Below, in pieces: positions 12,813 through 29,892 of a stretch of DNA of 51,715 nucleotides; within the stretch, counting starts at the first letter, position 1, and each line of letters starts with the position of its first letter. Under the pieces are notes generated by a model. It was not told the origin of the DNA. It searched no databases and saw only the letters and a program-made list of their open reading frames with translations. Source of the DNA: an uncultured Alphaproteobacteria bacterium. GTDB taxonomy: Bacteria; Pseudomonadota; Alphaproteobacteria; Rhodobacterales; Rhodobacteraceae. A program made the position numbers and the translations under genes. Location of the stretch: contig CACGWW010000011.1 in assembly GCA_902576905.1 (NCBI GenBank), positions 1 through 51,715 of the forward strand. The letters are read 5' to 3'.

Positions 12813-13946
12813 TCATAATGTTTGTTTCAAGATTTCCGTAAATCGCTCAAAGTCGTTAGTATTGTTCCATAAGTGAGGTGTAATTCTTAAATTGCCACCT
12901 CTCTCAGAGACAAATATTTTGTTTTCTGCCAAAGTTTCAAGAATGTTTTTCGGAGCTTTATAAGGTAGTTTTGCACCTATAAAATGAGGCCCTCTATTTT
13001 CAGGTCTTGGAATTTGCAACCCCAAATCGCTTAGCTTTTTACAGAGATTTAGATTTGAGTTATAGAGAGTGTTCTGAATGTTGGGTATACCCCATTTCTG
13101 TATTTGACGGAGTGCCTCTAGCACACCGGGAATAAGAGAAAAATTTGATCTTTGCCCCATATCATACCTGATTGCTCCAGGTTCATAATAATCCTGGTAA
13201 TCGACGAGATTTGCAAAATCCTTACTGTTTTTTCTTGTTATCCAGCCTTCTTCAAGTGGCTCCCCATTATGGAATTTAGGGGAAACATAAAGAAATCCAG
13301 TTGAGTAGGGGCCAAGCATCCATTTATAATTTGCTACAATTGCAAAAGCAGGATCTATTTCACTAAGGTCTATATCAAAAGCGCCTGCGGATTGGGTAAG
13401 GTCAACAACGAGCTCAGTTTTACATTCCAAGCATTTTGCTTTCACTTTTTCTAAATCTATTAATGATCCATTTGTCCACAATACATTTGCCGTTGCGCAA
13501 ACGCTAAACCGTTCATCTAAAGCGTCGATTATATGATCTGTGGCTGCTTCACCATCAGGGACATTTACAGTTTTGATCTCAGCACCTTTCTGCTTAGCTA
13601 TACGCCGCCACGGATAGACATTAGATGGAAACTGATCAGATAGAACAAGTATTTTTGATCCCGCTGAAATCTGTAAATTTTTTGCGGCAGTCTGAACACC
13701 ATAAGAAGCAGAGGGAATAATAGCTATATTAGTTCCAACTGTATGCATAAGGTTTGAAAATAAATTTCGAGCCTCTTCTATATCATCAAAAAAATTGCTT
13801 ATCTTGAGTTTCCATGGATTGGCTTTTAAACGACTTCCGCTATCTATGGCAGTGACAACGCTGTTTAAAAGGGGGGACATGTATGCAGTATTTAAATATG
13901 CGACGTCTTCAGGAATATCAAAAAGATGTCTTTGGCAAGGGATCAT
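12813..13946 (-). CDS. Aminotransferase class V-fold PLP enzyme
   Basis: 377 residues. PLP-binding features: D182 and Q185 (VDLTQSAGAF) and the Schiff-base lysine K208 in ANYKWMLGP. This resembles the kynureninase/cysteine desulfurase superfamily, but the exact reaction is not recognisable. It starts 15 nt after the class III aminotransferase stop, so it is the last gene of the long minus-strand run. It may process the amino-acid product of the hydantoin/pyrimidine pathway. Confidence 0.8.
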   Translation of the reverse strand: MIPCQRHLFDIPEDVAYLNTAYMSPLLNSVVTAIDSGSRLKANPWKLKISNFFDDIEEARNLFSNLMHTVGTNIAIIPSASYGVQTAAKNLQISAGSKILVLSDQFPSNVYPWRRIAKQKGAEIKTVNVPDGEAATDHIIDALDERFSVCATANVLWTNGSLIDLEKVKAKCLECKTELVVDLTQSAGAFDIDLSEIDPAFAIVANYKWMLGPYSTGFLYVSPKFHNGEPLEEGWITRKNSKDFANLVDYQDYYEPGAIRYDMGQRSNFSLIPGVLEALRQIQKWGIPNIQNTLYNSNLNLCKKLSDLGLQIPRPENRGPHFIGAKLPYKAPKNILETLAENKIFVSERGGNLRITPHLWNNTNDFERFTEILKQTL

Positions 13947-13961
13947 GTGTTCTTTTTTAAA

Positions 13962-15245
13962 CTAGGAAATTGCTGCAATGCCCTCAGCCGCTTTTTTAAA
14001 TGCGCTATCAGTTTTCTGAAGATCTTCTTTGGTAAGCGCAAGGTGTGTATAAAGTTTGGCATCGGCTTTGAGAATTCCGAGTTCTCTAACTATTTGATTG
14101 AAAGTTTTTGAGTATTCAGCCTTATTTTTCTTTGTATCACGGTAATTAATAACAGGTGTTTCAGAAAAAATGATATCGAAAAGTGTTGGGTCGCCAACAA
14201 TTTGAAACTCTATATTATTACTTTTAAGATGTTTTGTAATGCTATCAATTAAAAACCGCCCGTTTTCTCTTATCCTATTATAAGCACCATCTCTCCTAAG
14301 TATCTCCATGGTTTTTAAACCAGCTACTGCTGCCAAGGGATTTCCACTAAGAGTACCGATTTGGAAAGTAAACTTTTCTTCGCCAACAATATTTTTGTCA
14401 AAATGGTTCATAATTTCTTTTTCACCGGCAATAGCCGCTAAAGGTAAGCCACCTCCAATGATCTTCCCAAGCGTGCATAAATCAGGCACTACTTCATACA
14501 GCTCCTGTGCCCCGCCATAGGCCAACCTAAAACCAGTAACTATTTCGTCAAAAATCAAAAGCGCACCAATTCTTTTTGTTTCAGCCCTAAGATGCTCTAA
14601 AAATCCTTTTATTGGCGGAATTATTCTTTGAAGCGGCTCTACAATTACCCCAGCAATTTGATCTGAATACTCATTCATTATTTCCGTAGCGACTTGAGGA
14701 TCGTTAAATGGTGCAACCAAAATATCATCTCTAACGGTTTCAGGTATTCCCGCGGAATCCGGCACTGCCAATGGGAAATTTACCATTTTGTTAGGTGCAA
14801 GACTCATTAATGAGTCTCCACTCATCCCATGATACCCTCCCTCAAATTTGAGGATTTTATTTCTACCTGTATGTGCTCTCGCCAATCGCATCGCATACAT
14901 ATCAGCTTCACCACCAGAGCTTACAAATCTAATCTGCTCGGCACATTTCACTGCGTTACAAATTTCTTCAGCTAACTCTATTCCTTTTGAATTATTGGTA
15001 AAAAAAGTAAGACCTTCACCGAGTTGGGCCCGTATAGCATCCAATACTTCTTCATTTCCATGACCCAGTATCATTGGTCCTGAACCAATTAAAAAATCGA
15101 TATATTCTTTATTGTCTTCATCCCATACACGTGAACCTAACCCTCTTTTTAGACTGATGCTAGGATCAAAATTGCCAAAACCTGCACCTGGAAGAACCTT
15201 CTGTGCTCTGCTTTGCCATTCTTTTAGGGATATATTTTTATTCAT
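13962..15245 (-). CDS. Class III aminotransferase (glutamate-1-semialdehyde aminomutase-like)
   Basis: About 427 residues from ATG 15245; an ATG at 15257 is also in frame but begins 4 nt after a terminator hairpin. Class III signatures (numbered from the longer start): D237 in LLIFDEIVTGFR and PLP lysine K265 in LGKIIGGGLP. The normal SGSEA phosphate-binding motif reads SSGGEA. GSA aminomutase proper acts in heme synthesis, but the catabolic operon suggests an omega-transaminase, for example for beta-alanine or beta-aminoisobutyrate released by the ureidopropionase-like enzyme. That assignment is inference. Confidence 0.85.
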   Translation of the reverse strand: MNKNISLKEWQSRAQKVLPGAGFGNFDPSISLKRGLGSRVWDEDNKEYIDFLIGSGPMILGHGNEEVLDAIRAQLGEGLTFFTNNSKGIELAEEICNAVKCAEQIRFVSSGGEADMYAMRLARAHTGRNKILKFEGGYHGMSGDSLMSLAPNKMVNFPLAVPDSAGIPETVRDDILVAPFNDPQVATEIMNEYSDQIAGVIVEPLQRIIPPIKGFLEHLRAETKRIGALLIFDEIVTGFRLAYGGAQELYEVVPDLCTLGKIIGGGLPLAAIAGEKEIMNHFDKNIVGEEKFTFQIGTLSGNPLAAVAGLKTMEILRRDGAYNRIRENGRFLIDSITKHLKSNNIEFQIVGDPTLFDIIFSETPVINYRDTKKNKAEYSKTFNQIVRELGILKADAKLYTHLALTKEDLQKTDSAFKKAAEGIAAIS

Positions 15246-15260
15246 TTGTTTCTTCATTTG

Positions 15261-15292
15261 AAAAAGGGCAGACTATTGGTTCTGCCCTTTTT
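15261..15292 (-). terminator. Strong hairpin after the NMT1/ThiY-type binding-protein gene
   Basis: AAAAAGGGCAGA (15261-15272) and TCTGCCCTTTTT (15281-15292) form a perfect 12-bp stem with an 8-nt loop. Read on the minus strand the stem ends in a T-run, so this is a typical intrinsic terminator. It lies between the binding-protein gene and the aminotransferases, so the latter probably depend on read-through or a separate promoter. Confidence 0.85.
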
Positions 15293-15311
15293 GCTAAATA
15301 TTAGTTTGGAT

Positions 15312-16304
15312 CTATTTTAAAGCGGCATCCGTAATCTCGTGGGTCCATGCGCCAACTGGTTTTTTAGTAATAACAGGATCGGACCCTCCCTTAAGAAGTG
15401 TTGCCACTGTCCTGTCAAAATCGGCAGGTTCAAGTGCTCCATTTGACCCTGCGGTAAGCTTAGCAATTTCGCCCATCATCCTCTTCTGGTGTTTCTCGGT
15501 TTGAGCACCGGTAGCGTCATTATCTAACACTATTTCAGCGGCTCCGTCTGGATTACTCTCTGCCCACTTCCAACCCTTCATAGAAGCTCTTACAAATCGT
15601 ACCATTTGATCTTTAAAACTTGCATCCTTTAAGCGATCTTCAAGAACGTAAATACCATCTTCTAGAGTAGCTACTCCTTGGTCCTGATACTTGAAAACAA
15701 CGAGATCATCTGGTGTTAAGCCAGCATCAATGACCTGCCAATACTCATTGTAAGTCATCGTAGAGATGCAATCGGCTTGTTTTTGCAAGATTGGGTCCAC
15801 GTTAAAGCCTTGCTTAAGGATCGTAACGCCATCAGATCCTCCGTTTGTAGGAATCCCTAGCTGGCTCATCCATGATAGGAATGGATATTCATTACCAAAA
15901 AACCATACTCCTATTGTCTTTCCTCGGAAATCTGCAGGCGATTTAATTCCAGTCTCTTTTCTGCAGGTAAGCTGTAAACCTGAAGACTTAAATGGCTGAG
16001 CGATGTTTACAATTGGAACGCCTTTTTCTCTAGCTGCTAGCGCTGAAGGCATCCAATTAAGCATTAAATCTGCACCGCCACCTGCGAGCACCTGTGGAGG
16101 GGCGATATCGGGACCACCAGGCTTAATAGTAACGTCTAAACCTTCGTCAGCATAGTAACCTTTATCTTTAGCTACATAATATCCTGCAAACTGTGCCTGA
16201 GTAACCCACTGTAATTGTAAGGTGAGCTTGTCAGCAGCATTTGCAGTGATGCTACTTAGAGCTAAAAGCAATGCACCTAAAAGGCCTCCTAAAACTTTTT
16301 TCAT
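15312..16304 (-). CDS. ABC transporter substrate-binding protein, NMT1/ThiY type
   Basis: 330 residues with a Sec signal peptide (hydrophobic residues 5-20, cleavage likely after TANA at residue 23). The mature domain begins with LTLQLQWVTQAQFAGYY, typical of periplasmic proteins that bind pyrimidine-like, nitrate/taurine or riboflavin-type ligands. An AAGGAGA Shine-Dalgarno precedes the ATG. It sits after both permeases in the operon and before a strong terminator. With the dihydropyrimidinase and ureidopropionase-like genes upstream, a pyrimidine, hydantoin or similar heterocycle is the best guess for the ligand. Confidence 0.88.
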   Translation of the reverse strand: MKKVLGGLLGALLLALSSITANAADKLTLQLQWVTQAQFAGYYVAKDKGYYADEGLDVTIKPGGPDIAPPQVLAGGGADLMLNWMPSALAAREKGVPIVNIAQPFKSSGLQLTCRKETGIKSPADFRGKTIGVWFFGNEYPFLSWMSQLGIPTNGGSDGVTILKQGFNVDPILQKQADCISTMTYNEYWQVIDAGLTPDDLVVFKYQDQGVATLEDGIYVLEDRLKDASFKDQMVRFVRASMKGWKWAESNPDGAAEIVLDNDATGAQTEKHQKRMMGEIAKLTAGSNGALEPADFDRTVATLLKGGSDPVITKKPVGAWTHEITDAALK

Positions 16305-16322
16305 ATACTTTCTCCTTATGTT

Positions 16323-17417
16323 TTAATTCCCTCTTATTGAAGGATGCCAGAATGTTAACCTTTTTTCAATAAAAGTTATTATTCCGTAGGTAATAGTGCC
16401 TACTAGCGCCGCAACAGTTATTTCAGCCCAAACCATATCTAAGTTCATTCTTCCGACCTCAGTTGAAATTCTGAACCCTACCCCGACAATAGGTGTTCCA
16501 AAAAACTCAGCTACAATTGCTCCTATTAATGCAAGTGTGGAATTTATTTTTAGCGCATTGAATATAAAGGGAGCAGCTCCATGAAGCCGTAAAAAAAATA
16601 ATGTTTGCGAATATGACGCCCCATATATCTTCATTAGATCTTTCTCAATTTGGCTGCTAATGCTCAAACCCGTTATTGTATTTACAAGCATTGGGAAAAA
16701 AGTCATTATCACAACTACCGCTGCCTTAGACTCCCAATCAAAACCAAACCACATAACCATAATTGGTGCCACTCCAATAATAGGCAATGCTGAAATAAAA
16801 TTCCCTATAGGTAATAAGCCTCGCTTCAAAAAAGGAGAGCTATCAATCAAAATAGCAATGAGAAGCCCACTGCTACAACCTATTAAATAACCAATTAAAG
16901 CGGATTTTACAAAAGTTTGAATAAAGTCTGCCCATAATATATCTAGAGAAGCAACAAACTTGACTCCAATCACGCTGGGAGAAGGTAATATTACAACTGG
17001 AATTTTTAGCCCCACAGTAGCTACCTCCCAGAAAAAAATTATCCATACACCAAAAAAAATGGGGGCTACAAAGTTTCTTATGGTACTTAAATAATTAGTC
17101 TCAAATTGTTTTTGCATTATTTTTTCAACTGCAAGCCAGCTATACAACCAAGAAGAGAAGATAAGAGGCCAACTTCCATTTGGAAGATCTTCATAAAGAT
17201 TTAGAATAACAAATATTATTGTGGCTACGCCAATAAATAAATCGTAGTAAAAAGACGCAAAAAAAGGAAAAAAAAGTCTTAGGCCTAATAAAATTCCGAC
17301 AATAGAAAGTATCAAAACAATGATGTTTGACTCTGAAAACCAAATAGTAGAGCTAACAAAGCAAATGGCTGAAAAAAGTAGAGCAAAAGTTAATAAAATA
17401 TTGCTAAGCTTCTTCAT
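16323..17417 (-). CDS. ABC transporter permease with extra N-terminal membrane region
   Basis: 364 residues. Residues about 1-100 add three or four hydrophobic segments before a standard binding-protein-dependent permease domain (from about residue 118). The permease motif in the EAA loop region reads KIYGASYSQTLFFLRLHGAAPF. Typical partners are near 250-300 residues, so the N-terminal extension is notable. It overlaps the upstream permease by 14 nt. It forms the channel with that permease and the ATPase. Confidence 0.9.
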   Translation of the reverse strand: MKKLSNILLTFALLFSAICFVSSTIWFSESNIIVLILSIVGILLGLRLFFPFFASFYYDLFIGVATIIFVILNLYEDLPNGSWPLIFSSWLYSWLAVEKIMQKQFETNYLSTIRNFVAPIFFGVWIIFFWEVATVGLKIPVVILPSPSVIGVKFVASLDILWADFIQTFVKSALIGYLIGCSSGLLIAILIDSSPFLKRGLLPIGNFISALPIIGVAPIMVMWFGFDWESKAAVVVIMTFFPMLVNTITGLSISSQIEKDLMKIYGASYSQTLFFLRLHGAAPFIFNALKINSTLALIGAIVAEFFGTPIVGVGFRISTEVGRMNLDMVWAEITVAALVGTITYGIITFIEKRLTFWHPSIRGN

Positions 17418-18321
17418 TACTATATCCCATTTTTTTTGATACTAAATATCCGATTGCTTGAATGGAAAAAACTAGAGTGGCTGCCAAAATTGAGGCCATT
17501 ATTAATGCGGACCAAATTTGGATTGTCTGACCATAATAAGATCCAGTTAAAAGGCGTGCCCCAAGACCTGCTACTGCACCTGTCGGAAGTTCTCCGACGA
17601 TCGCGCCGACAAGCGAAATTGCTATTGCTACTTTCATCGATGTAAAAAGAAATGGTACCGACGCTGGTAGTCGTAATTTAAAAAAAATGTCAACTTTTGT
17701 ACTATTATAAGTTTTCATTAAATCTACTAATATAATATCAGGGCTCCTAAGACCTTTCACCATACCAACAACAATAGGAAAAAAACTTAGGTATGTGGAT
17801 ATCAGTGCTTTCGGAAGAAGGCCAGAAAACCCCAATGAATTCAATACGACGATAATCATTGGAGCAATAGCCAAAATGGGAATTGTTTGACTTGCTATTA
17901 TCCAAGGCATCAAGGAACTTTCCATTGCTCGGTTTTCCACTATGCTTACTGCTAGCACAACTCCCAATACAGTTCCCAGAATAAAACCAACTATGGTCGA
18001 GGACAACGTAATCGAACTGTGATAAATCAACGATCTTTTTGAGGTAATCTTTTTTTCAACCGTTGTTTCCCAAATTTCTTCTGCTATTTGATGCGGCGCT
18101 GGCAATTTCGGTCTCTCTTGAGACATTGTGTCTAGCACAAGTTTTGAAATATTCCATGAAATGCCCTGCTTGTCATACTTATCTATCTGCATAGCTGAAT
18201 TTAAATAAATAGTAAAAAAATACCAAACTACAGTAAGTAAAACTAGAATAGTTAAAATTGGCAAAATTTTTCCAGCAATTGTTTTCAAAAACTTCTTAGC
18301 CCTTATTCTCATTGTGGTCAT
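17404..18321 (-). CDS. ABC transporter permease, SsuC/ThiX type
   Basis: 305 residues: one N-terminal membrane segment (about 15-33), a periplasmic stretch of about 60 residues, then a core permease domain with the EAA-loop region MKTYNSTKVDIFFKLRLPAS. An internal ATG three codons in (18312) is an alternative start. It overlaps the ATPase gene, so translation is coupled. Paired with the second permease, making a heterodimeric channel rather than the homodimer common in SsuABC systems. Confidence 0.9.
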   Translation of the reverse strand: MTTMRIRAKKFLKTIAGKILPILTILVLLTVVWYFFTIYLNSAMQIDKYDKQGISWNISKLVLDTMSQERPKLPAPHQIAEEIWETTVEKKITSKRSLIYHSSITLSSTIVGFILGTVLGVVLAVSIVENRAMESSLMPWIIASQTIPILAIAPMIIVVLNSLGFSGLLPKALISTYLSFFPIVVGMVKGLRSPDIILVDLMKTYNSTKVDIFFKLRLPASVPFLFTSMKVAIAISLVGAIVGELPTGAVAGLGARLLTGSYYGQTIQIWSALIMASILAATLVFSIQAIGYLVSKKMGYSNEEA

Positions 18322-19087
18322 ACCCAGAACGCAACCCCTCTCTCACTCTCTGCGAAATAGATATAAATTCTTTACTGTCTCTTATTTCTAACGAACGAGA
18401 AGAGGGAAATGGACTCTCAATAACATCCACAATTCTCCCTGGCCTAGGCGACATTACTACAATTTTTGTTGATAGAAAAACAGCTTCAGGAATTGAATGC
18501 GTTACAAAGCAGATGGTCTTACCAGTTTTTTGCCAAAGATCCAATAGTTGTTCATTTAGGTGATCTCTTACTATTTCATCTAATGCGCCAAACGGTTCAT
18601 CCATAAGAAGCAGATCGGCATCAAAAGACAAGGCTCTAGCAATAGAAGCTCTTTGTTGCATTCCACCAGATAACTGCCATGGAAATTTTTTTTCGAAGCC
18701 ATTTAATTCTACTAAATTCAGTGACTCACTAACTCTTTTAGAAATTTCTTCTCTGCTGTAATTCATTATTTCCAATGGTAAACTTACATTTTTAGATATG
18801 TTCCTCCATGGATAAAGACCTGCTGATTGAAAGACATAGCCATATGCTCTATTGGTTCTTGCCTCATCTGGCGAAACTCCATTCACTAATATTTGTCCCG
18901 AGGTAGGATTCTCTAAAGCTGCTACAGTTCTCAAAAATGTCGTCTTCCCACAACCTGAGGGTCCAATAAAAGATACAAATTCACCTGCGCCCACTTCTAA
19001 CGAAATGTTTTTAAGGGCAACAACTTCCTCTGAACCTTTTCCGAACTTTAATTCAACATTTTTTGCTGAAATTATTTTATCCGTCAT
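18296..19087 (-). CDS. ABC transporter ATP-binding protein, SsuB/TauB/ThiZ type
   Basis: 263 residues with Walker A GPSGCGKTT (about 43-51), Q-loop YVFQSAGLYPWR, signature LSGGMQQR, Walker B LLLMDEPFGALDE and the switch histidine in CFVTHSIPEA. This is the nitrate/sulfonate/taurine-type ATPase family. It starts 5 nt after the dihydropyrimidinase stop and overlaps the first permease. It energises import of the substrate that the neighbouring hydrolases would open. Confidence 0.93.
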   Translation of the reverse strand: MTDKIISAKNVELKFGKGSEEVVALKNISLEVGAGEFVSFIGPSGCGKTTFLRTVAALENPTSGQILVNGVSPDEARTNRAYGYVFQSAGLYPWRNISKNVSLPLEIMNYSREEISKRVSESLNLVELNGFEKKFPWQLSGGMQQRASIARALSFDADLLLMDEPFGALDEIVRDHLNEQLLDLWQKTGKTICFVTHSIPEAVFLSTKIVVMSPRPGRIVDVIESPFPSSRSLEIRDSKEFISISQRVREGLRSGYDHNENKG

Positions 19088-19092
19088 TTTTA

Positions 19093-20553
19093 TTAGATGC
19101 CAGATGGTATATTTAAAGGGTCTCGTTCGATTTTCCTAGGTGTATTAAGCGCCTTCCATTTTGATACAGCACTATGTAATGCCGGGAATGCAGGTCTTGG
19201 GACAAATCTACCTCTTCCTGGTTGAGGACTTGAGTTTTTACCCCATGCCCAAATGACATCGCCTCTTGATAACGTGTACCTCGGCTGAGCTGTGACTTTG
19301 AACCCCTCAAAAACGTTATAGTCTAAAATTGATTTATGAGTGCTGGTAGAAATAGTTTTAGAAATCTTTGGGTCCCAAACAACAATATCTGCATCCGCTC
19401 CTTCCACAATTGCTCCTTTTTTTGGATAAATATTTAGAATTTTTGCAATATTACTCGAAGTAATTGCAACAAACTCCTGTCGGGTTAAACGCCCCGTTTC
19501 TACACCCTCTGTCCAAAGAACTGATAACCTTTCTTCAAGCCCGTTGCTACCATTTGGAATCTTTGTGAAATCATTTACTCCCATTCTTTTTTGTTCCGTC
19601 GAAAACGCCGCATGGTCTGTAGCGACTACTTGCAGAGATCCAGACTGAAGACCCGCCCATAAACCGTCCTGATGCGATTTGTCTCGAAAGGGAGGTGACA
19701 TCACCCGTCTAGCGGCATGTTCCCAATCTTTATTAAAGTATTCGCTCTCATCTAGCGTTAGAAATTGAATAAGGGGTTCACCAAAAACTCTCATACCTTT
19801 TTGCCTAGCTCTTCTAATAGCCTCATGAGCCTGCTCACAAGATACATGAACAACATATAGCGGTACTCCTGCGGCATCGGCTATCATTATCGCTCTATTA
19901 GCTGCCTCACCCTCTACCTCAGGAGGTCTTGAGTAAGCGTGCCCTTCAGGACCAGTTACTCCTTCTTGAAGGTATTTTTGCTGAAGCTCCGCAACAATAT
20001 CACCATTTTCGGCGTGAACCATGGGCAGAGCGCCTATAGCTGCACATCTTTTAAAGGATGCAAACATTTCATCATCTTCAATCATTAGGGCTCCTTTATA
20101 AGCCATAAAATGTTTGAATGAATTTACTCCCATCTCAACTACCCTTGGCATATCATCAAAAATCTGTTCAGACCAACCTGTAACTGCCATATGATAACCG
20201 ATGTCAGAACAAATTTGAGGCTCTGACTTTCTATGCCACTCCTTAACTGCATTTACCAAACTTCCATCCTCACCTGGAAGACAGAAGTCCACTAACATTG
20301 TTGTTCCGCCAACTGCAGCTGCCCAGGTACCTGTTTCAAAAGTCTCGGCGGCGGTAGTTCCCATAAATGGCATCTCAAGGTGCGTATGTGGGTCTATTCC
20401 GCCGGGGATCACATAAGCGCCTTCGGCGTCAATGGTCTCATCCCCCTTTAGATTTTCCCCAATCTGCTTGATCTTTTCATTTTCTATTAATATATCAGCT
20501 TTCCACTCTCTGTCCGTTGTTACAATGGTTCCACCTTTTATTACTTTAGTCAT
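19093..20553 (-). CDS. hydA: Dihydropyrimidinase / D-hydantoinase
   Basis: 486 residues, cyclic amidohydrolase. The binuclear metal site is intact: H56 and H58 (DPHTHLE), carboxylated lysine K147 (SFKHFMAYK), H180 (MVHAENG), H236 (YVVHVSC) and D313 (ATDHAAF). K147 with FMAYK separates it from allantoinase and dihydroorotase. A GGGAGGG Shine-Dalgarno is well placed. It hydrolyses the amide of 5,6-dihydrouracil, dihydrothymine or hydantoins to N-carbamoyl amino acids, the substrate of the enzyme encoded just upstream. Length is normal for the family. Confidence 0.93.
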   Translation of the reverse strand: MTKVIKGGTIVTTDREWKADILIENEKIKQIGENLKGDETIDAEGAYVIPGGIDPHTHLEMPFMGTTAAETFETGTWAAAVGGTTMLVDFCLPGEDGSLVNAVKEWHRKSEPQICSDIGYHMAVTGWSEQIFDDMPRVVEMGVNSFKHFMAYKGALMIEDDEMFASFKRCAAIGALPMVHAENGDIVAELQQKYLQEGVTGPEGHAYSRPPEVEGEAANRAIMIADAAGVPLYVVHVSCEQAHEAIRRARQKGMRVFGEPLIQFLTLDESEYFNKDWEHAARRVMSPPFRDKSHQDGLWAGLQSGSLQVVATDHAAFSTEQKRMGVNDFTKIPNGSNGLEERLSVLWTEGVETGRLTRQEFVAITSSNIAKILNIYPKKGAIVEGADADIVVWDPKISKTISTSTHKSILDYNVFEGFKVTAQPRYTLSRGDVIWAWGKNSSPQPGRGRFVPRPAFPALHSAVSKWKALNTPRKIERDPLNIPSGI

Positions 20554-20566
20554 TTTACCCTCCCAA

Positions 20567-21814
20567 TTAAACTATTTCTGCAGCTTCTAATACTGCATGC
20601 AATAAAACATCTGCACCTGCTGAAGCCCACTTTTCAGATATCTCTTCTGCCTCATTGTGGCTCAAACCGTCAACGCACGGGCACATTATCATAGCCGTTG
20701 GTGCTACTTTATTAATCCAACAAGCGTCATGTCCTGCTCCCGATATAATATTTTTATGTGAATACCCTAGTCTTTCAGCGGCTCTTCTAACTTTGTCAAC
20801 ACATCCTTCATCGAAAGTCACGGGGTCAAAATGTCCAACTTTTTCAAATTCCACAGTCAATTCCAAATCAGAAGCAATTTTTTTTGCTCCTTCATATAAG
20901 CGTTTTTCCATATCATCCTGGACGTCAAACGATGGAGATCTAAAATCTATAGTAAATACCACTTTCCCAGGTATTATGTTTCTACTATTAGGAAACACAT
21001 CGCATTGACCTATTCCACCAACTGCGGATGGCTGGTGACTCATTGCGATATCTTGTACGAGCTCTGTAATTCTAGCCATACCTAGGCCGGCATTTTTACG
21101 CATCGGCATGGGGGTTGATCCCGTATGACTTTCCCGACCATTAAGAGTTACTTGTATCCAATTAAGCCCTTGTCCATGGGTCACAACGCCAATATCTGTA
21201 TTTTCAGCCTCTAATATTGGCCCTTGCTCTATGTGGAGCTCAAAAAAAGCATGCATTTTTCGTGATCCTACTTCTTCGTCACCAATCCATCCAATGCGCT
21301 TGATTTCTTCTCCAAAAGTTTTTCCTGCTGTATCCTTTCTGTCATAAGCCCATTGCAGTTCGTGTACTCCTGCAAAAACTCCTGATGCCATCATCGGAGG
21401 GGCAAAGCGCGTTCCTTCTTCATTTGTAAAATTAACCACTACAATTGGATGCTTTGTTTTTATATCAAGTTCATTCAGTGTTCTTATTATTTCTAACCCT
21501 CCCAGAACGCCTAAAACTCCATCATACTTACCCCCAGTTGGCTGGGTATCAAGATGGCTTCCTACGTAAACAGGTAAGGCATTTGGTTCTGATCCCTCAC
21601 GTCTAGCGAACATTGTTCCCATTTTGTCAACACCCATTTCCAAGTTTTCTTTATCACACCACTTTTGGAACAACTCTCTTGCCTCTGCGTCTTCGTCCGT
21701 GAGTGTTTGTCTGTTGTTTCCACCCGCTACACCAGGACCAATTTTTGCCATCTCCATTAGAGAGTCCCAAAGACGAGAAGAGTTTATTTTTAAATTAGCT
21801 GCTGGTGTTGACAT
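20567..21814 (-). CDS. Zn-dependent amidohydrolase, beta-ureidopropionase/HyuC/AllC family
   Basis: 415 residues, M20-type dinuclear zinc enzyme. Metal and catalytic residues: H87 (GSHLDTQ), D98 (GGKYDGVLG), E132/E133 (FTNEEGTRF), H194 (ELHIEQGPIL) and a C-terminal histidine in LSHNEAE. The family hydrolyses N-carbamoyl amino acids or allantoate to ammonia, CO2 and the amino acid. Placed 13 nt before a dihydropyrimidinase, the best reading is N-carbamoyl-beta-alanine (or N-carbamoyl amino acid) amidohydrolase. Allantoate is less likely without allantoinase. AGAGGAT Shine-Dalgarno. Confidence 0.9.
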   Translation of the reverse strand: MSTPAANLKINSSRLWDSLMEMAKIGPGVAGGNNRQTLTDEDAEARELFQKWCDKENLEMGVDKMGTMFARREGSEPNALPVYVGSHLDTQPTGGKYDGVLGVLGGLEIIRTLNELDIKTKHPIVVVNFTNEEGTRFAPPMMASGVFAGVHELQWAYDRKDTAGKTFGEEIKRIGWIGDEEVGSRKMHAFFELHIEQGPILEAENTDIGVVTHGQGLNWIQVTLNGRESHTGSTPMPMRKNAGLGMARITELVQDIAMSHQPSAVGGIGQCDVFPNSRNIIPGKVVFTIDFRSPSFDVQDDMEKRLYEGAKKIASDLELTVEFEKVGHFDPVTFDEGCVDKVRRAAERLGYSHKNIISGAGHDACWINKVAPTAMIMCPCVDGLSHNEAEEISEKWASAGADVLLHAVLEAAEIV

Positions 21815-21833
21815 TTGATCCTCTTAACAAATT

Positions 21834-22745
21834 TCATATTTTCGTCTTTGCATTATCACTAATTAGCAGTAATAATGCAAAGGCAATTATCAAGCCCCCA
21901 AAAATTATGTTTTTATTTGGAAAGCTAGAGTTAATGATTATTTCACCTAAGGCTACCCAAAAAGGAACAGCATAGGTGTATGCCATTACTTTTGAAGCAC
22001 TGATCCTTTTCGCGGCAAACTGAATTAAGAAAAAAGTAAAGGCAGTCGCAATAGTTGCCAAGTAAATTATAGTTATCCAGACTAATGGAGATAGGCTGAG
22101 CCAATTTGTTTCAACAACATCATTAGTAAAAATTAAAATAAGTAGTAGAAATCCAGCGCTTAAAGTTCCCAAGGTTTGCGATGCTGCATTTTCCCCTTTG
22201 TTAAGAACAGGGATCAAAATAGCATATAAAGCGTGTCCAACACACCCCCAAAAAAAGAGTAGTTCGCCATAGCCTATTTTAAACGCGAAAAGGTTTTCTA
22301 GATTGCCTTCAAAAATCACCCAAATTGCTCCCATTGCTCCGAGGGAAATTGCAAATAACGCTCTGAAAGTCACTTTTTTCTTTAAAAAATACTCAAAAAA
22401 AAGTGCTATAAAAGGGGTGAGCGTGAAAACTACAGCTAGTGATAGAGAAGAAGCTGTTTTTAGGGCTTCGAACATCAATACAAAATAAATAACTATACTC
22501 AATCCGAGGATCAAAAATCGCCATGGTTTTTTGAAGGCCTCGTTCTTAAGGTTTTTTGAAATAAATAATAACGTTCCCATTACAATTGCTCCTATTAAAA
22601 ACCTCGCTGCTGTAATGGCTCCTGGCTCTATATCATTAGCTACCATGGCTCCTAAAATATAGGACACTGATACACAAAGGGAGAAAAGTAGCATTGCCCC
22701 GTGTCCCCAAACCTCTGCTGTCTCTACTGATACTTTTTTTATCAA
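21834..22745 (-). CDS. EamA/DMT-family transporter
   Basis: 303 residues, about ten membrane segments in two EamA repeats. The longest frame begins at TTG 22745. The first ATG is 17 codons in (22694), just before the first membrane segment, and is an alternative; neither has a strong Shine-Dalgarno. It lies between the F420 genes and the hydantoin-type catabolic genes, same strand, 19 nt before the amidohydrolase. It may export a product or import a related compound. Confidence 0.82.
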   Translation of the reverse strand: MIKKVSVETAEVWGHGAMLLFSLCVSVSYILGAMVANDIEPGAITAARFLIGAIVMGTLLFISKNLKNEAFKKPWRFLILGLSIVIYFVLMFEALKTASSLSLAVVFTLTPFIALFFEYFLKKKVTFRALFAISLGAMGAIWVIFEGNLENLFAFKIGYGELLFFWGCVGHALYAILIPVLNKGENAASQTLGTLSAGFLLLILIFTNDVVETNWLSLSPLVWITIIYLATIATAFTFFLIQFAAKRISASKVMAYTYAVPFWVALGEIIINSSFPNKNIIFGGLIIAFALLLLISDNAKTKI

Positions 22746-22844
22746 GAGCTAATTAACCTGAGATATTGCCTGAGCTATATTTGTAATACAGTTTTTTACA
22801 ACTTAGAAATGGAGAAAAGTCTGTTCTTCAATAACTTAGGCATC

Positions 22845-23846
22845 TTATGAGAAAGCCGGTATAACATTTTCGCCGTACTCTGCGATTATTCTCTCTTCGT
22901 CTCCGCTATCCAGATAAATATTAAATTGGGTTACTCCGAGATCTTTTAATGTTTTAAGTTTTTTTATATGTTGATCAGCGGTTCCTAAAACACAAAATTC
23001 TTCAACTATTTCATCTGTAATAAATTCTAAATAGGGATTGTCGCTCTGGCCATGTTTAGAGTAATCATAACCGCGGCGATCTTTGATATAGTCCGTAAGG
23101 CTGTTGGGAATGTCTTTATTATCTTCACCATACTTCTCAACTATGTCAGCTACGTGATTTCCAACCATTGCGGGAAACCACTTTACTTTCTCAATACTTT
23201 CTGCCCTGTCTCCAAAGTAAGCAGGTGCAGCCACCATTACCTTGTAGTCTGACATATCGCGTCCGTGTTCTTCTCCTGCTTTCACTGCTTGATCTCTTAG
23301 CCATTTGCAAACGGTTGGAGAAGCAATTTGAAGCACCAAACCATCTCCAACTTTTCCTGCAGATGTAAGAGCCTTTGGCCCATATGCAGCCACCCAGACT
23401 GGCAAATCATATCCGTCTGCCCATGGAAATTGGATTGGGTTGGGAACATCACCATAGTGGACTTCCTCCCCCTTAACCATTGCCTTTACTTTTAAAATAA
23501 ATTCTTCCATTCTTGCCAGGTTCGCAGGCTTCTTTCCCATCACGCGAACAGCGCTGTCTCCTCTTCCAACACCGATATCAAATCGTCCGTTCGATTGTAG
23601 AGCTAGTGAGCCAAACATTGATGCTGCTAAAGACCAGTCTCTAGTGTTAGGATTGGTTACACATGGTCCAAACCGCATTTCTTTTGTGTGTTCCATACAC
23701 ATAGCCATTTGAGCAAAGCTTTCTCTCCAAAGGATGTGGCTATCGTAGAACCAGCAATATGTGAATCCAGCGCTTTCAGCCAATCTAACCAGCGCTTTTG
23801 CTCGATCTGGTTGAACAAACCCTTTAAAACAAATTGCAAATTCCAT
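22845..23846 (-). CDS. LLM-class, probably F420-dependent oxidoreductase
   Basis: 333 residues from ATG 23846, chosen because GGAGGAAG sits directly before it; the 11-codon longer frame has no such signal. It is a TIM-barrel of the luciferase-like superfamily, close to methylenetetrahydromethanopterin reductase. Supporting stretches are FWYDSHILW-like YCWFYDSHILW, RFGPCVTNPNTRD and FDIGVGRGDSA. From memory it resembles the CPS_4043-type family of proteobacterial F420 oxidoreductases, whose substrate is unknown. F420 use is supported by npdG, cofE and cofD immediately upstream. Adjacent to the hydantoin/pyrimidine genes. Confidence 0.85.
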   Translation of the reverse strand: MEFAICFKGFVQPDRAKALVRLAESAGFTYCWFYDSHILWRESFAQMAMCMEHTKEMRFGPCVTNPNTRDWSLAASMFGSLALQSNGRFDIGVGRGDSAVRVMGKKPANLARMEEFILKVKAMVKGEEVHYGDVPNPIQFPWADGYDLPVWVAAYGPKALTSAGKVGDGLVLQIASPTVCKWLRDQAVKAGEEHGRDMSDYKVMVAAPAYFGDRAESIEKVKWFPAMVGNHVADIVEKYGEDNKDIPNSLTDYIKDRRGYDYSKHGQSDNPYLEFITDEIVEEFCVLGTADQHIKKLKTLKDLGVTQFNIYLDSGDEERIIAEYGENVIPAFS

Positions 23847-23860
23847 ATCTTCCTCCTTTT

Positions 23861-24529
23861 TTATTCCTCCGGTGGCCAAATTTTTATTCCAGCATGTGAA
23901 AAAGGCACCGCTTTAGACATATTTATTCTTATCAATATAGGCGTTATAGCCTCTAAACATCTCGCTGATGTTGCATCACCAGCATTGTAAGCTTCGACTT
24001 CCAAGTTTTTTAACAACTCTATAGTATCTAATCTAGCATCCAAATTATTTCCACATACCAAGATATCACAATTAATTTTTTTCTCTAGGTGATTGAGTGT
24101 ATTCGCGGAAACATTGTGGAGGGCGCCAACTACTGGTATGTCAGGCCCTAATATGGCTTGGGCTGCTTCTGTAGCTGAGCCTTCAGGGGGCATAGCTACT
24201 TTTCTTGGGTTTCCTTCCTCCAATGGAACTACTATATCAACAAGTACTTTATCCGCTAGCATCCCTTTGATTTCACTGAGTGTATTGTTGTGACCACTCC
24301 AAGGTACTGAAAATATAACAAACTTGTCGGTGAATGCTATTGCTTCGCTATTCGAAACCCCAGTTATTGACCCCACGAGGTTTTGGTTTTTTGATGTTAA
24401 ACTATCTGCAACTTCGATAGCTCTGGATTCATCACGTGATCCCAAAGCAACTTCAAAACCTGCCTTGGCAAATCTAAGGGCAAGGCCTTTACCTTGGGGC
24501 CCAGTTCCTCCAATGATTGATAATTTCAT
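23861..24529 (-). CDS. npdG: NADPH-dependent F420 reductase (F420H2:NADP+ oxidoreductase)
   Basis: 222 residues. The N-terminal Rossmann motif [13 protein letters not shown] (5-17) and the following GSRDESRA (30-37) bind NADP, as in NpdG/Fno. [11 protein letters not shown] and GALHNVSA are family-like elements around the active site. The ATG overlaps the cofE stop (ATGA). It transfers hydride between NADPH and F420 and so would supply F420H2 to the LLM enzyme encoded 14 bp downstream. Normal length. Confidence 0.92.
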
Positions 24530-25305
24530 CTAAACATATCCTCATTTTGTTTTCGTAGAATGTCATTTGCAGAGCCATATTTGCCACTCCAGCTAAGCCC
24601 TCTTAATAAAATTGCTGGACATTTTCCTGCTTTGCTCATAAGTAACCCCGAAGAAGTGGCTATTTCATCACAAAAAGCTGGTTCTGTCACGTATAATTGA
24701 TTTCCCCAAGCATCTTTAGTTCCCTGCTCTTTTTTTGTTGCTGGAATTCCTGCGACACCAATAGCGACATTGACCTGTCCAATCCTCCATGGCCTTCCAA
24801 AGGTATCACTCATAACTATCCCCAAATTCTCCAAATCAAAGTGATTTTTTAATTTATCTCGTAAAACTTGCACACTAAGGTCAGGATTTTTTGGAACGGT
24901 CACTACAGTTTCCTGACCCGCTATATTAGACTCGTCAACCCCTGCATTAGCGCAGATAAATCCAAGTTTATGCTGACAAATGAGAGTTCCTTCATTTTGT
25001 TCCTCTCTTTTAAAAGAGCGAATAATATTCTTACTTTCTTGTAATACGACTTCGACTTTTCTTGGGTCCTTGTTAAGGCTTTTCCCGAGTTCGATTGCTT
25101 TTCTGGAGGGAGTAATTTCTTTTAAATTTATTACACATCCCTCAGCTTTTGAAAATATTTTATGTGCTATACAAATAACGTCAAATTCTTTCAGACATAT
25201 AGATGATTTGTTGAGAGCAGAAATCAGGATGTCAGTAATGTTATCACCGTTATCAATGTCAGGAATATGCGGAATTATATTTAAATTTAACGTTGAATTT
25301 GACAT
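24526..25305 (-). CDS. cofE: Coenzyme F420-0:L-glutamate ligase
   Basis: 259 residues from ATG 25305; TTG 25314 is an alternative start. The family fold is indicated by [12 protein letters not shown] near the N-terminus, [13 protein letters not shown] in the middle and [18 protein letters not shown]. It adds gamma-linked glutamates to F420-0. It lacks the C-terminal FMN domain seen in actinobacterial FbiB, so it is the short archaeal/proteobacterial type. Overlaps npdG by 4 nt. Confidence 0.92.
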
Positions 25306-25348
25306 TTTCTTCAATAGTTACCTTAATCTGCAATAATTACTAGTTATA

Positions 25349-25381
25349 GATTACGATCTGTAATCAACTTTTTAAAAAGTT
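25349..25381. promoter_or_regulatory. Adjacent palindromes upstream of cofE
   Basis: GATTAC (25349-25354) and GTAATC (25360-25365) flank a 5-nt spacer. They are followed immediately by the perfect 16-bp palindrome AACTTTTTAAAAAGTT (25366-25381). They lie in the 94-bp gap between cofD and cofE. They may be an operator or overlapping RNA hairpins for the cofE-npdG-LLM unit. Confidence 0.4.
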
Positions 25382-25398
25382 CTAAAGTCTTTCAAAAG

Positions 25399-25420
25399 AT
25401 CAATCAATAGGTTGATTGAT
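25399..25420 (-). terminator. Hairpin overlapping the cofD stop codon
   Basis: ATCAATCAA (25399-25407) and TTGATTGAT (25412-25420) form a perfect 9-bp stem with a 4-nt loop, covering the last codons and stop of cofD. On the minus strand it is followed by CTTTTG, a weak T-run. The AT-rich stem makes strong termination doubtful. Confidence 0.35.
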
Positions 25421-26341
25421 TATGAACTTAGCTAGCCGTCTCTTGTCTGCGAGAGAGGTCATCAGAGTGTTCGTAAATATAGGTTTTTGATTTAGTAGAA
25501 TAAATTGTTTCTCCAAGCCTATATCAGACCTATCAAGAATAAATGATTTGCAAATATCTTTATAGAACTGCATACAAGAAAAAGAATTTGGCTTGAAACC
25601 TAATTGTTTAAGCATTTTTGATGCGGGACCTTTTACCGCCTTTCCTTGAATCAACGGACTTATTGCTATCACCTTCTTATTATTTTTTTTAATTGTCGAT
25701 TTAAACCCAGGTATTTCAAGTATTGGTTTTATACTTACTAAAGGGTTTGAGGGAGCAATAATTATAAGTTCAGCGTTAAATAGTGCTTTTTTTGCCTCTT
25801 TGGTGATTTTGGCTGATTTAATTCCGGTGTATTTTAGTTTTATAATTTTTGGTGAACACCTTTTTTTGACAAAATATTCCTGAAATGATAGCCAACCCGA
25901 CGTGGTTTGTACCTCTGTTCTTATCTTATCGTCAGTCGGTAAGATTATATCTGCAGTTACACCCAATTTTTTAGCGATCTCATTGGCAATAATTGTCGGA
26001 CGATGATCATTTAATAGTCTGTGCTGTCTGTATATATGGAGACCAAAGTCGAGATCACCTAAAGACATCCAGGTTTCTTCGCCTAATTTATTTAATATTG
26101 AGAGCGTCTTGTAATCGTCATTTTTTACTCCCCATCCTTGCTTTCGGTTCACCATTCCTGAAAGTGTATACGTTAAGGTATCTATATCTGGAGAAACCCT
26201 TAGCCCATGGAACTCATCATCATCTGCAATGTTGCCAATGATAGCGAGATTTATATCTTTTATGGAATTAAGTCCTTCTGCTAATTTTGCACCACCTACA
26301 CCACCTGCTATGAGAACAATATTTTTGGAAGATCTTGTCAT
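25400..26341 (-). CDS. cofD: 2-phospho-L-lactate transferase (F420 biosynthesis)
   Basis: 313 residues. The N-terminal AGGVGGAKLAEGL (about 12-24) and IGNIADDDEFHGLRVSPD are diagnostic of CofD/FbiA, which joins the phospholactyl-type moiety to Fo. Near-normal length. No Shine-Dalgarno is visible before the ATG, so the transcript may be short-leadered. First gene of the F420 group; CofC/FbiD and the Fo synthase (CofG/CofH or FbiC) are not in the window. Confidence 0.93.
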   Translation of the reverse strand: MTRSSKNIVLIAGGVGGAKLAEGLNSIKDINLAIIGNIADDDEFHGLRVSPDIDTLTYTLSGMVNRKQGWGVKNDDYKTLSILNKLGEETWMSLGDLDFGLHIYRQHRLLNDHRPTIIANEIAKKLGVTADIILPTDDKIRTEVQTTSGWLSFQEYFVKKRCSPKIIKLKYTGIKSAKITKEAKKALFNAELIIIAPSNPLVSIKPILEIPGFKSTIKKNNKKVIAISPLIQGKAVKGPASKMLKQLGFKPNSFSCMQFYKDICKSFILDRSDIGLEKQFILLNQKPIFTNTLMTSLADKRRLAKFIINQPID

Positions 26342-28132: not shown

Positions 28133-29314
28133 ATGGTTAATTTTAAAACACAAGTAACGATTATAGGTGGTGGTCCATCGGGGCTATTATTATCCCAGTT
28201 GCTTATGAATGAGGGTATAGACACCATCATTTTGGAAAAACACACTAAAAGCCATGTATTATCAAGAATAAGAGCTGGTGTTTTGGAGAGTGGGACCGTA
28301 GAAATATTGAAGCAAGCTGGTGTAGGTGAAAGAATAGAGATTGATGGGTTTGTTCATGAAGGTACTTATCTTTCATCAGAAAATAAAGGTTTCAGAGTTT
28401 CTTTTTCAGAGACCGTGGGTAAGAGTGTTACAATTTTTGGACAAACTGAAGTAACAAAAGATTTATACCAAAAGCAGGAGGAGAGAGAAGCTAATATCTT
28501 TTTCCAGGTAAAAAACGTAAATATAATTGACCCAAAATGTTCAAAGACGGAGGTAATATTTGAAGATGAAATTGGGAAAGAAATTAAAATTGTATCTGAC
28601 TTTGTTGTAGGCTGTGATGGCTTTCATGGCGTTAGCAGGCAGCGAATCCCTCTAAACCAAAGAAAAGAGTATGAAAGAATATATCCATTCGGCTGGCTAG
28701 GTATTTTGTCTGAAACCCCTCCCGTCAGCGATGAGTTGATTTATGCCAACACTAGTGATGGATTTGCTCTATGCTCCATGAGGAATAATAATCTTTCAAG
28801 ATACTATCTTCAGTGTGATGTGAATACTAAAGCAGAGGACTATTCGGATGATTATTTTTGGAAGGAATTAATTAAACGACTGCCCGAGAATTCAAAGGAT
28901 AATTTAAGGACTGGCCCTTCAATTGAGAAATCTATTGCTCCGCTGAGGAGTTTCGTGGTCGAGCCGCTTCAATACGGCAATCTTTTTCTCGTTGGAGACG
29001 CGGCTCACATTGTGCCTCCAACCGGAGCTAAGGGTTTGAACCTAGCGGTGTCAGATGTGCATTATTTATCAGAGGGCCTTATAGCCTTTTATAGAGGAGA
29101 GGGTGATAAGAAATTATTTAACTACTCTAAAACGGCTTTGAATAGAATATGGAAAGCGGTGAGGTTTAGTTGGTGGATGACTACTTTGATGCATGAGTTT
29201 CCTGAGACTAAAGAATTCGACAGGAAAATAAAAATAAGTGAATTAGACTATCTTTCGCATTCAAATTTTGCGCAAGCGCATTTTGCCGAAAACTATGTAG
29301 GCATACCATTATGA
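28133..29314 (+). CDS. pobA: 4-hydroxybenzoate 3-monooxygenase
   Basis: 393 residues, normal for PobA. FAD-binding GGGPSG (12-17), the NADPH/FAD region SRIRAGVLESGTVEILKQAG and the second FAD motif GDAAHIVPPTGAKGLN match p-hydroxybenzoate hydroxylase closely. It converts 4-hydroxybenzoate to protocatechuate with NADPH and O2. The ATG lies 6 bp after a terminator T-run and has no Shine-Dalgarno; no better start exists before the FAD motif. Expression therefore probably depends on attenuation or on a (nearly) leaderless transcript. Overlaps the next gene by 4 nt. No ring-cleavage genes are in the window. Confidence 0.93.
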   Translation: MVNFKTQVTIIGGGPSGLLLSQLLMNEGIDTIILEKHTKSHVLSRIRAGVLESGTVEILKQAGVGERIEIDGFVHEGTYLSSENKGFRVSFSETVGKSVTIFGQTEVTKDLYQKQEEREANIFFQVKNVNIIDPKCSKTEVIFEDEIGKEIKIVSDFVVGCDGFHGVSRQRIPLNQRKEYERIYPFGWLGILSETPPVSDELIYANTSDGFALCSMRNNNLSRYYLQCDVNTKAEDYSDDYFWKELIKRLPENSKDNLRTGPSIEKSIAPLRSFVVEPLQYGNLFLVGDAAHIVPPTGAKGLNLAVSDVHYLSEGLIAFYRGEGDKKLFNYSKTALNRIWKAVRFSWWMTTLMHEFPETKEFDRKIKISELDYLSHSNFAQAHFAENYVGIPL

Positions 29315-29892
29315 AAAATTTCATAGAAAGAGCTTTGAGGGTAATCGAAGAAGAAATAATTCCAGAAACAAAAAAAGGTGTTGCGAAAGGTAATAAAGTT
29401 TTTGGAGGCGCTATTTTAAACAAAAGTGACTATGCAACCCTGACTATTGGAGTTAATCAAGAAACTGAAAACCCGCTTTTTCATGGTGAAATATCTACGT
29501 TAAACAAATTTTTTGCCGAAAACAAAAATAGGTCCACAGATGATTTAATATTTTTGTCGACACATGAGCCTTGCCCAATGTGTTTATCAGCTATTACTTG
29601 GGCAGGGTTTAATACTATTTACTATTTTTTTAATTACCAAGATACAAAAAAGGCTTTTAATATAGCTCATGATTTAGACATTCTGTCGGAAGTATTTGGA
29701 AGGTCGGATGGAGCATATAGTAAAGAAAATTATTTTTGGAAATGTTATGCAATAAAAGATCTGATCAGTAAGCTAGAGCCAGCAAGTAGAGATAATTTAT
29801 TGAAAATATCTGAGCGTATATCGTCAATATATGAGAGTTTATCGGAAGTGTACCAAAATAAGAAAAATGACAATAGTATTCCGCTCTGCTAG
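29311..29892 (+). CDS. Zn-dependent nucleoside/cytidine-deaminase-like protein
   Basis: 193 residues. The deaminase zinc site is complete: H58-x-E60 (FHGEIS) and P87-C88-P89-M90-C91. FGGAILNKSDYATLTIGVNQ matches the first strands of the guanine/cytosine deaminase fold. The C-terminal 60 residues, beyond the usual core, are charged and helical. Translation is coupled to pobA (ATGA). The partnership with an aromatic hydroxylase is unexpected, so the substrate may be an amino-substituted aromatic or purine; this is inference. Confidence 0.85.
   Translation: MKNFIERALRVIEEEIIPETKKGVAKGNKVFGGAILNKSDYATLTIGVNQETENPLFHGEISTLNKFFAENKNRSTDDLIFLSTHEPCPMCLSAITWAGFNTIYYFFNYQDTKKAFNIAHDLDILSEVFGRSDGAYSKENYFWKCYAIKDLISKLEPASRDNLLKISERISSIYESLSEVYQNKKNDNSIPLC

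Follow-up and report, generated by a model that had tools for sequence, protein, structure and literature searches.

The stretch of DNA analysed here, 51,715 nucleotides long and hereafter called the window, is contig C11 of a 1.69-Mb metagenome-assembled genome (MAG) of an uncultured alphaproteobacterium, which is 77% complete. It holds an operon in which genes for the synthesis and reduction of cofactor F420 are joined to genes for the uptake and ring opening of pyrimidines, and a luciferase-like protein (LLM) encoded between them is probably the reductase that links the two. Its 13 genes all lie on the minus strand, the first starting at 26341 and the last ending at 12813; several of them overlap, and no gap exceeds 99 bp. 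An earlier note had described this one-strand operon, and its gene list and coordinates proved right for all 13 genes. In what follows, L numbers designate loci, G numbers designate genomes, and the figure given after “vs” in a score is the cut-off of the family model.

The operon opens with three cofactor genes. The first, cofD (25400..26341), encodes 2-phospho-L-lactate transferase of F420 biosynthesis (Pfam CofD, 132.7 bits vs 30; 255.5 bits to NCBIfam TIGR01819, slightly under its cut-off of 257.45), and is followed by cofE (24526..25314) for F420-0:L-glutamate ligase (TIGR01916, 223.3 vs 180.65) and npdG (23861..24529) for NADPH:F420 oxidoreductase, the proposed supplier of F420H2 (TIGR01915, 173.4 vs 149.8). 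The LLM gene comes next (22845..23846; TIGR03842, 502.7 vs 295.45); its open reading frame (ORF) as called begins at a TTG at 23879, and alignment places the conserved start at the ATG at 23846. Its pattern of replacing PreTA, set out below, makes it a candidate F420H2-dependent pyrimidine (uracil/thymine) reductase.

LLM falls in Pfam PF00296 and scores over the curated cut-off of TIGR03842, a family that NCBIfam types as a hypothetical equivalog without an assigned reaction. Mer enzymes are its nearest solved relatives by sequence, and the first 15 PDB matches that Foldseek returned for its AlphaFold2 model (mean predicted local distance difference test score, pLDDT, 82.6) are all F420 enzymes, the best of them Mer. 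These matches, and the cof and npdG genes found at most LLM loci, are indirect signs that LLM may bind F420. On the analogy of PydA, LLM might have a catalytic cysteine, but this idea was rejected: all 33 proteobacterial rows of the alignment have C42 and C61, the Streptomyces row has neither, and the residue at position 17 varies, with C in 21 rows and T in 12. No catalytic residue is therefore proposed.

Downstream of LLM, an EamA/DMT permease gene (21834..22745; Pfam EamA, 85 bits) precedes the two genes for the later steps of pyrimidine degradation. The first encodes an M20 N-carbamoyl amidohydrolase (20567..21814; NF006769, 681 vs 452), assigned the ureidopropionase (PydC) role by family alone, the matched model itself carrying the name allantoate amidohydrolase. 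Its nearest solved structures are the N-carbamoyl-L-amino-acid hydrolases 8apz (676 bits) and 8aq0 (668 bits) and the N-carbamoyl-beta-alanine amidohydrolase 8c46 (666 bits). The second is hydA (19093..20553; TIGR02033, 592 vs 393), for a dihydropyrimidinase in the PydB role, whose nearest solved structures are the D-hydantoinase 4tqt (746 bits) and the dihydropyrimidinase 3dc8 (734 bits).

An ATP-binding cassette (ABC) importer occupies 15312-19087, with an ATPase (18296..19087; Pfam ABC_tran), two permeases (17404..18321 and 16323..17417; both Pfam BPD_transp_1) and an NMT1/THI5-like substrate-binding protein (15312..16304; Pfam NMT1, 143 bits), for which the closest solved structure is a formylaminopyrimidine-binding protein (PDB 3ix1, 84.6 bits). 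Two versions of this importer circulate in the genus: L045, L050 and L051 are 97-100% identical to the window, and L044, L046, L048, L049 and L052-L055 carry another at about 56-72%. The hydA and class III aminotransferase genes that flank both versions stay at 90-99%, and it seems that only the importer cassette has been exchanged.

The last two genes encode enzymes dependent on pyridoxal phosphate (PLP). The class III aminotransferase (13962..15257), a possible beta-alanine transaminase, resembles glutamate-semialdehyde aminomutase and scores under the cut-off of that model; a 58% relative stands immediately after LLM in L089. The class V PLP enzyme (12813..13946; Pfam Aminotran_5, 84.6 bits) has weak solved relatives only (cysteine desulfurase, kynureninase) and no clear role in pyrimidine breakdown. 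The PLP enzymes plausibly serve the pathway at its beta-alanine end.

The same gene order is found in other genomes of the window’s genus, for instance in L044, L046, L048, L049 and L051-L056. Because this order recurs, and because order and linkage also recur across LLM and preTA loci, a chance neighbourhood was rejected. The remaining F420 genes, cofG-cofH-cofC, lie on a separate contig of the MAG, so that genes for the F420 pathway are all found in it; in a congener (G001), cofH lies about 40 kb from LLM on one contig. Relatives of the LLM locus at 96-99% identity come from records titled uncultured Alphaproteobacteria and one Rhodobacteraceae-MED-G56, and the top plasmid matches are from Paracoccus and Leisingera. 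Beyond the operon, at 28133-29892 on the plus strand, the window carries a 4-hydroxybenzoate 3-monooxygenase gene (580 vs 538.7 bits) followed by one for a deaminase-like protein with a PCPMC motif.

Gene neighbourhoods of LLM and preTA

A scan of public genomes located 195 places with an LLM relative, and 80 of these loci were examined. F420 synthesis genes usually stand alongside LLM, with at least three cof or npdG genes at 72 of the loci, and hydA or M20 lies within the examined flank at 47. No match to preA or preT was found in the flanks of any of the 80, which extends to the relatives an absence that the earlier note had remarked for the window’s operon. At 46 loci roughly 10 kb is covered on either side of LLM; hydA or M20 lies there at 33 of these (23 of 36 outside the window’s genus and its kin), and four further loci have one of them just past the flank (L105, L109, L112, L122). 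The linkage, whose lack in relatives the same note would have counted as a refutation, holds in many Alpha- and Gammaproteobacteria and in one Streptomyces.

LLM is unlinked at eight of the 46 loci; a ninth, L097, is known from its flank only. Seven of the eight genomes have no PreA, and each possesses a preTA-less hydA operon at another site (L179-L183, L192, L193); the eighth, a Shimia, has PreTA (L173). The region taken from G266 for its hydA (L196) showed no matching gene.

For comparison, 34 regions containing preTA were gathered (L139-L143, L145-L173). M20 and hydA are present in 29 of them, the exceptions, with preTA but neither of these genes, being L141, L143, L147, L148 and L163, and the commonest order is preT-preA-(EamA)-[TetR]-(aminotransferase)-M20-hydA-ABC. 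The corresponding arrangement on the F420 side, cofGHDCE-npdG-LLM and then M20-hydA-ABC, occurs in L063, L065, L069, L096, L103, L107 and L120, with a gene resembling rutR between LLM and M20-hydA-ABC in L096, L103 and L107. An EamA gene lies between LLM and M20 in the window and next to preA in L146, L148, L159 and L162. In operons of otherwise the same order, npdG-LLM occupies the slot of preTA.

This association does not depend on the cofactor genes. At four loci LLM is followed by M20-hydA-ABC, and the flank yielded no cof gene (10 kb upstream in L062, L066 and L092; 1.8 kb in L077), and the linkage therefore belongs to LLM itself. Hitch-hiking of the F420 genes was rejected on the basis of these four loci, one of which has a short flank.

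Other arrangements also occur. A divergent organisation with an NCS1 transporter is found in Leisingera, Limimaricola, Pseudovibrio, Paracoccus denitrificans and Thalassovita, and in two Vibrio, one Marinomonas and one Oceanospirillum hydA-NCS1-M20 is divergent to cof-LLM. Additionally, genes for the NAD(P) transhydrogenase PntAB lie within the cluster in Leisingera (L026, 9269-12286) and Limimaricola (L204, L205), which suggests a dedicated NADPH supply for NpdG.

Three loci, two from Roseibium (L090, L100) and one from G103 (L134), have in the vicinity of LLM a further F420 gene cluster that diverges much more strongly (identities of 36% for cofE, 33-36% for cofD, 52-56% for cofG and 48-50% for cofH), and F420 genes may therefore have entered these bacteria more than once. 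On plasmid pSBC2-6 of Caballeronia sp. SBC2 (L027), only the last third of an LLM gene was matched (72% identity), beside M20, alanine dehydrogenase and pntB genes; this cluster is a decayed or partial version. The record JAHVJD010000013.1 (L086/L124) is titled Nocardioides marinus and matches G298 of the window’s family, so its title looks wrong.

The relationship between the two kinds of operon was also followed through hydA, using a quick IQ-TREE phylogeny of 75 protein rows without bootstrap, in which the direction of change is not readable. LLM-linked and preTA-linked rows interleave, with 7 changes between types, and the clade of the window’s hydA lies inside a strongly supported group of 12 rows that is made up of six LLM-linked and six preTA-linked ones. 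The labels are nonetheless clustered, with 13 changes where shuffling gave a mean of 22-23 for each label. The best reading of these sequences is that LLM and preTA have been swapped several times; whole operons may also move by transfer.

Regulators offer a further point of contact between the two systems. Three TetR regulators, from two LLM loci and one preTA locus, match RutR best (TIGR03613, 198-224 bits, under the cut-off of 368), and the two from LLM loci score 147-157 bits against RutR structures; judged by sequence, these regulators are RutR-like, not RutR proper. In passages of PMC10891134, the uracil contacts of Escherichia coli RutR are given as W77, Y97, W167, Q171 and Q179. All five residues are kept in 101 of 101 regulators (50 from LLM loci, 34 from preTA loci and 17 others), a set selected for resemblance to RutR or to a single regulator from an LLM locus, from which 7 stop-containing and 2 short segments were dropped and which includes some loci of one genome taken twice. 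A RutR-like regulator is present at 36 of the 80 named LLM loci; none was found in the window.

Outside the Proteobacteria, a Streptomyces plasmid (L185) carries a TIGR03842 gene (579 bits) directly after a dihydropyrimidinase gene (554 bits). On the same strand, 2-5 kb upstream, lie a class III aminotransferase gene and one for a carbon-nitrogen hydrolase non-homologous to M20 (Pfam CN_hydrolase; best NCBIfam model N-carbamoylputrescine amidase, under its cut-off).

PreA and LLM across genomes

If LLM stands in for PreTA, genomes with one should tend to do without the other. The distribution was assessed in a sample of the window’s family comprising 394 genomes from 393 genera, about one per genus, with thresholds of E <= 1e-80 for PreA and E <= 1e-110 for hydA; listings were crossed by hand, and the counts ignore phylogeny otherwise. 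LLM occurs in 13 of these genomes, PreA in 329 (316 over cut-off) and dihydropyrimidinase in 346 (344 over cut-off). PreA was found in 2 of the 13 genomes with LLM (G168, G298) and in 327 of the 381 without it (Fisher p = 6.8e-8). The anticorrelation is retained when the sample is restricted to a completeness of 90% or more and a contamination of 5% or less: PreA is then present in 2 of 11 genomes with LLM versus 299 of 335 lacking it (p = 2.3e-7). Within the 346 hydA-positive genomes, LLM accompanies 10 of the 27 that lack PreA, compared with 2 of the 319 that have it (p = 8.5e-11). One LLM-positive genome of the family sample, G054 (74% complete), showed no hydA.

A second set consists of 50 named LLM-positive genomes from the 65 loci L059-L123, outside the window’s genus and kin, with near-duplicates and short loci omitted. 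All 50 have hydA over cut-off, and 11 have PreA. Four of them are also in the family sample (G117, G151, G168, G298), so the two sets are not fully separate; minus these, PreA is found in 9 of 46. At least two hydA genes are present in 10 of the 11 PreA-positive genomes, as one gene per pathway predicts, the exception being Shimia (G468).

The earlier note would also have counted preTA elsewhere in the same genome as a refutation. In the window’s own 77%-complete MAG, no match to PreA reached the cut-off (best 36.8 bits vs 335), and the same is true of congener G007 (91% complete); PreA is likewise absent from 11 of the 13 and 39 of the 50 LLM-positive genomes. RutA was found in 2 of 62 LLM-positive genome entries, four genomes being entered twice, and at E <= 1e-80 in the window’s own MAG there was none. 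Paracoccus denitrificans DSM 413 (L088), which carries LLM, showed neither PreA nor RutA.

Proposed reaction and competing explanations

Dihydropyrimidine dehydrogenase (PreTA/PydA), the usual first enzyme of reductive pyrimidine degradation, is an iron-sulfur flavoprotein dependent on NAD(P)H. We propose that in such an operon LLM takes the place of PreTA as a uracil/thymine reductase dependent on F420H2, and we would place the probability of this at roughly 0.8. The earlier note had suggested that LLM, fed by NpdG, may take over from PreT/PreA, and comparative genomics supports that proposal well through the conserved linkage to hydA and M20, the anticorrelation with PreA, the swapping within one slot, the uracil pocket of the RutR-like regulators and the rarity of RutA.

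In the proposed mechanism, the ABC importer would take up the base, and NpdG, by its family function, would pass a hydride from NADPH to F420. LLM would then deliver this hydride, now carried by F420H2, to the C5=C6 bond of the base, either uracil or thymine, and so produce the dihydropyrimidine. HydA would open its ring, M20 would release beta-alanine or its methyl analogue together with CO2 and ammonia, both as expected for their families, and the aminotransferase would hand on the beta-alanine. The cofactor would be made by CofD and CofE from the operon and by CofG, CofH and CofC from the other contig. At many other loci a gene for a RutR-like repressor lies within the cluster, and in some so do genes for PntAB, a possible source of the NADPH.

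Several observations weigh against this interpretation. PreA and LLM coexist in 2 of the 13 and 11 of the 50 LLM-positive genomes (two genomes being in both counts), and the two enzymes may therefore act on different substrates; at least two hydA genes are also found in 10 of the 39 PreA-negative named genomes. The clearest exception to the replacement pattern is Shimia sp. R9_2 (L075/G468), which has a complete cof-npdG-LLM cluster and whose sole hydA adjoins PreTA. Conversely, both PreA and LLM are missing from 17 hydA-positive members of the family sample. Five of these, each with a strong hydA, reach a completeness of 95% or more (G163, in 870 contigs, G236, G286, G357 and G369), so the first step must have a further solution or hydA a further use. 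In the order of Oceanospirillum (244 genomes; LLM in 11, PreA in 15, overlap 0, p = 1) the replicate is uninformative because both genes are rare and zero overlap is the chance expectation. No pathway gene lies in the flank of 28 of the 80 named loci, 19 of them cut by contig ends and 9 not. The conserved uracil pocket is partly expected, since the regulators were selected by RutR likeness, and preTA-locus regulators show it equally. Finally, the genes of L185 are interrupted by opposite-strand ORFs, and this single case is the only actinobacterial one from plasmid records.

An unlikely alternative, though one with evidence of its own, is that LLM reduces another ring, such as hydantoin, a modified pyrimidine or a cyclic ureide, which then feeds HydA and M20, and that uracil is not its substrate. 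Among solved structures, HydA scores best against one named D-hydantoinase and M20 against one named N-carbamoyl-L-amino-acid hydrolase, but 3dc8 and 8c46 come within 13 bits of these two. Several of the 11 named genomes with both PreTA and LLM have different transporters for the two (ABC versus NCS1), and the next NCBIfam matches of one NCS1 protein, under cut-off, are allantoin permeases. However, most LLM-positive genomes lack PreA, the hydA tree mixes LLM-linked with preTA-linked rows, and the RutR-like regulators of LLM loci keep the five uracil contacts in 50 of 50 cases.

It is very improbable that the F420 and pyrimidine genes are adjacent through the ribityl-uracil origin of FO or operon drift only, with LLM doing an unrelated job. 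FO is indeed built from 5-amino-6-ribitylaminouracil, according to passages of a 2021 review (PMC8498797), and LLM and hydA are unlinked at 8 of the 46 full-flank loci. Against this stand the four loci where LLM stays with M20-hydA-ABC in a flank that showed no cof gene (a short one in L077), the preTA-less hydA operons in seven of the eight unlinked genomes, and the anticorrelation with PreA.

RutA acts on uracil and belongs, like LLM, to the luciferase-like family PF00296. That LLM is a RutA-like oxygenase dependent on flavin mononucleotide, opening the pyrimidine ring oxidatively, was nevertheless set aside as the least credible explanation, since no RutA model is among the 20 NCBIfam matches of LLM, BLASTP against E. 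coli RutA gave no meaningful match (best E 0.034), the nearest folds are F420 enzymes, RutA itself is rare in LLM-positive genomes, and LLM is linked to NpdG, F420 synthesis and dihydropyrimidinase, an enzyme of reduced rings.

Extending the proposal of an F420H2-dependent uracil/thymine reductase, it is about an even question whether many Alpha- and Gammaproteobacteria make F420 chiefly for pyrimidine reduction, with cofactor synthesis, NADPH supply and LLM forming a uracil-induced mobile module exchanged several times with PreTA, and whether actinobacterial TIGR03842 proteins carry out the same reaction, possibly with a non-homologous ureidopropionase. In that case, the trace F420 reported in Paracoccus denitrificans would reflect growth without pyrimidines.

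Relation to known systems

According to the 2021 review, no F420-dependent enzyme from bacteria other than Actinobacteria had yet been the subject of experiments, and the reason why Proteobacteria make F420 is among the questions it lists as unanswered (PMC8498797); passages of another study describe an assay of Paracoccus denitrificans CofC (PMC8764529). In the literature we searched on F420 and pyrimidine metabolism, no proposal of F420-dependent pyrimidine reduction was found, though an earlier one is possible. If the reading is true, it would supply a concrete, testable reason for F420 in such Proteobacteria, a likely reaction for TIGR03842, and a further reductant and enzyme class for the opening reaction of a pathway that recycles nitrogen. 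If LLM, as its family suggests, needs no iron-sulfur clusters, the exchange would save iron as well, and LLM might be useful as a ring reductase.

Mer, the F420-dependent methylenetetrahydromethanopterin reductase, is the closest solved relative of LLM by both sequence and fold. However, fold alignments give 21-27% identity, the substrate of Mer is a pterin, and LLM scores far under the cut-offs of the Mer models (114.5 vs 348.7 and 123.4 vs 276). The Rut pathway also applies a luciferase-like enzyme to pyrimidines, and its regulator resembles those found here, but it is oxidative, LLM does not match the RutA model, and RutA is seldom present beside LLM.

Other precedents are variants of the first reductive step. 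In Clostridium chromiireducens, PydAc is a ferredoxin-dependent dihydropyrimidine dehydrogenase, described in passages that do not mention F420 (PMC7332683); it likewise represents a first step with an altered electron donor, but it is still a PydA homologue, and in the present case enzyme family and cofactor would both have changed. A putative F420-dependent luciferase-family reductase for yanthine has been put forward for urate clusters of Chloroflexota, with a variety that the passages liken to that of the Pyd pathway (2025, PMC12507026). This is, similarly, a genomic proposal in which an F420 luciferase-family enzyme replaces a PydA-like reductase, although in another pathway and phylum.

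A further counterpart is the PydA/PreTA reductive pathway, represented by PreTA of E. coli and by the rhodobacteral preTA-M20-hydA-ABC operons. Dihydropyrimidinase, M20 and the ABC importer are common to both and stand in the same order, and many loci of both kinds carry a RutR-like regulator of the same type. The difference lies in the first enzyme, non-homologous by family, where PreA and PreT would be replaced by LLM of PF00296 together with F420.

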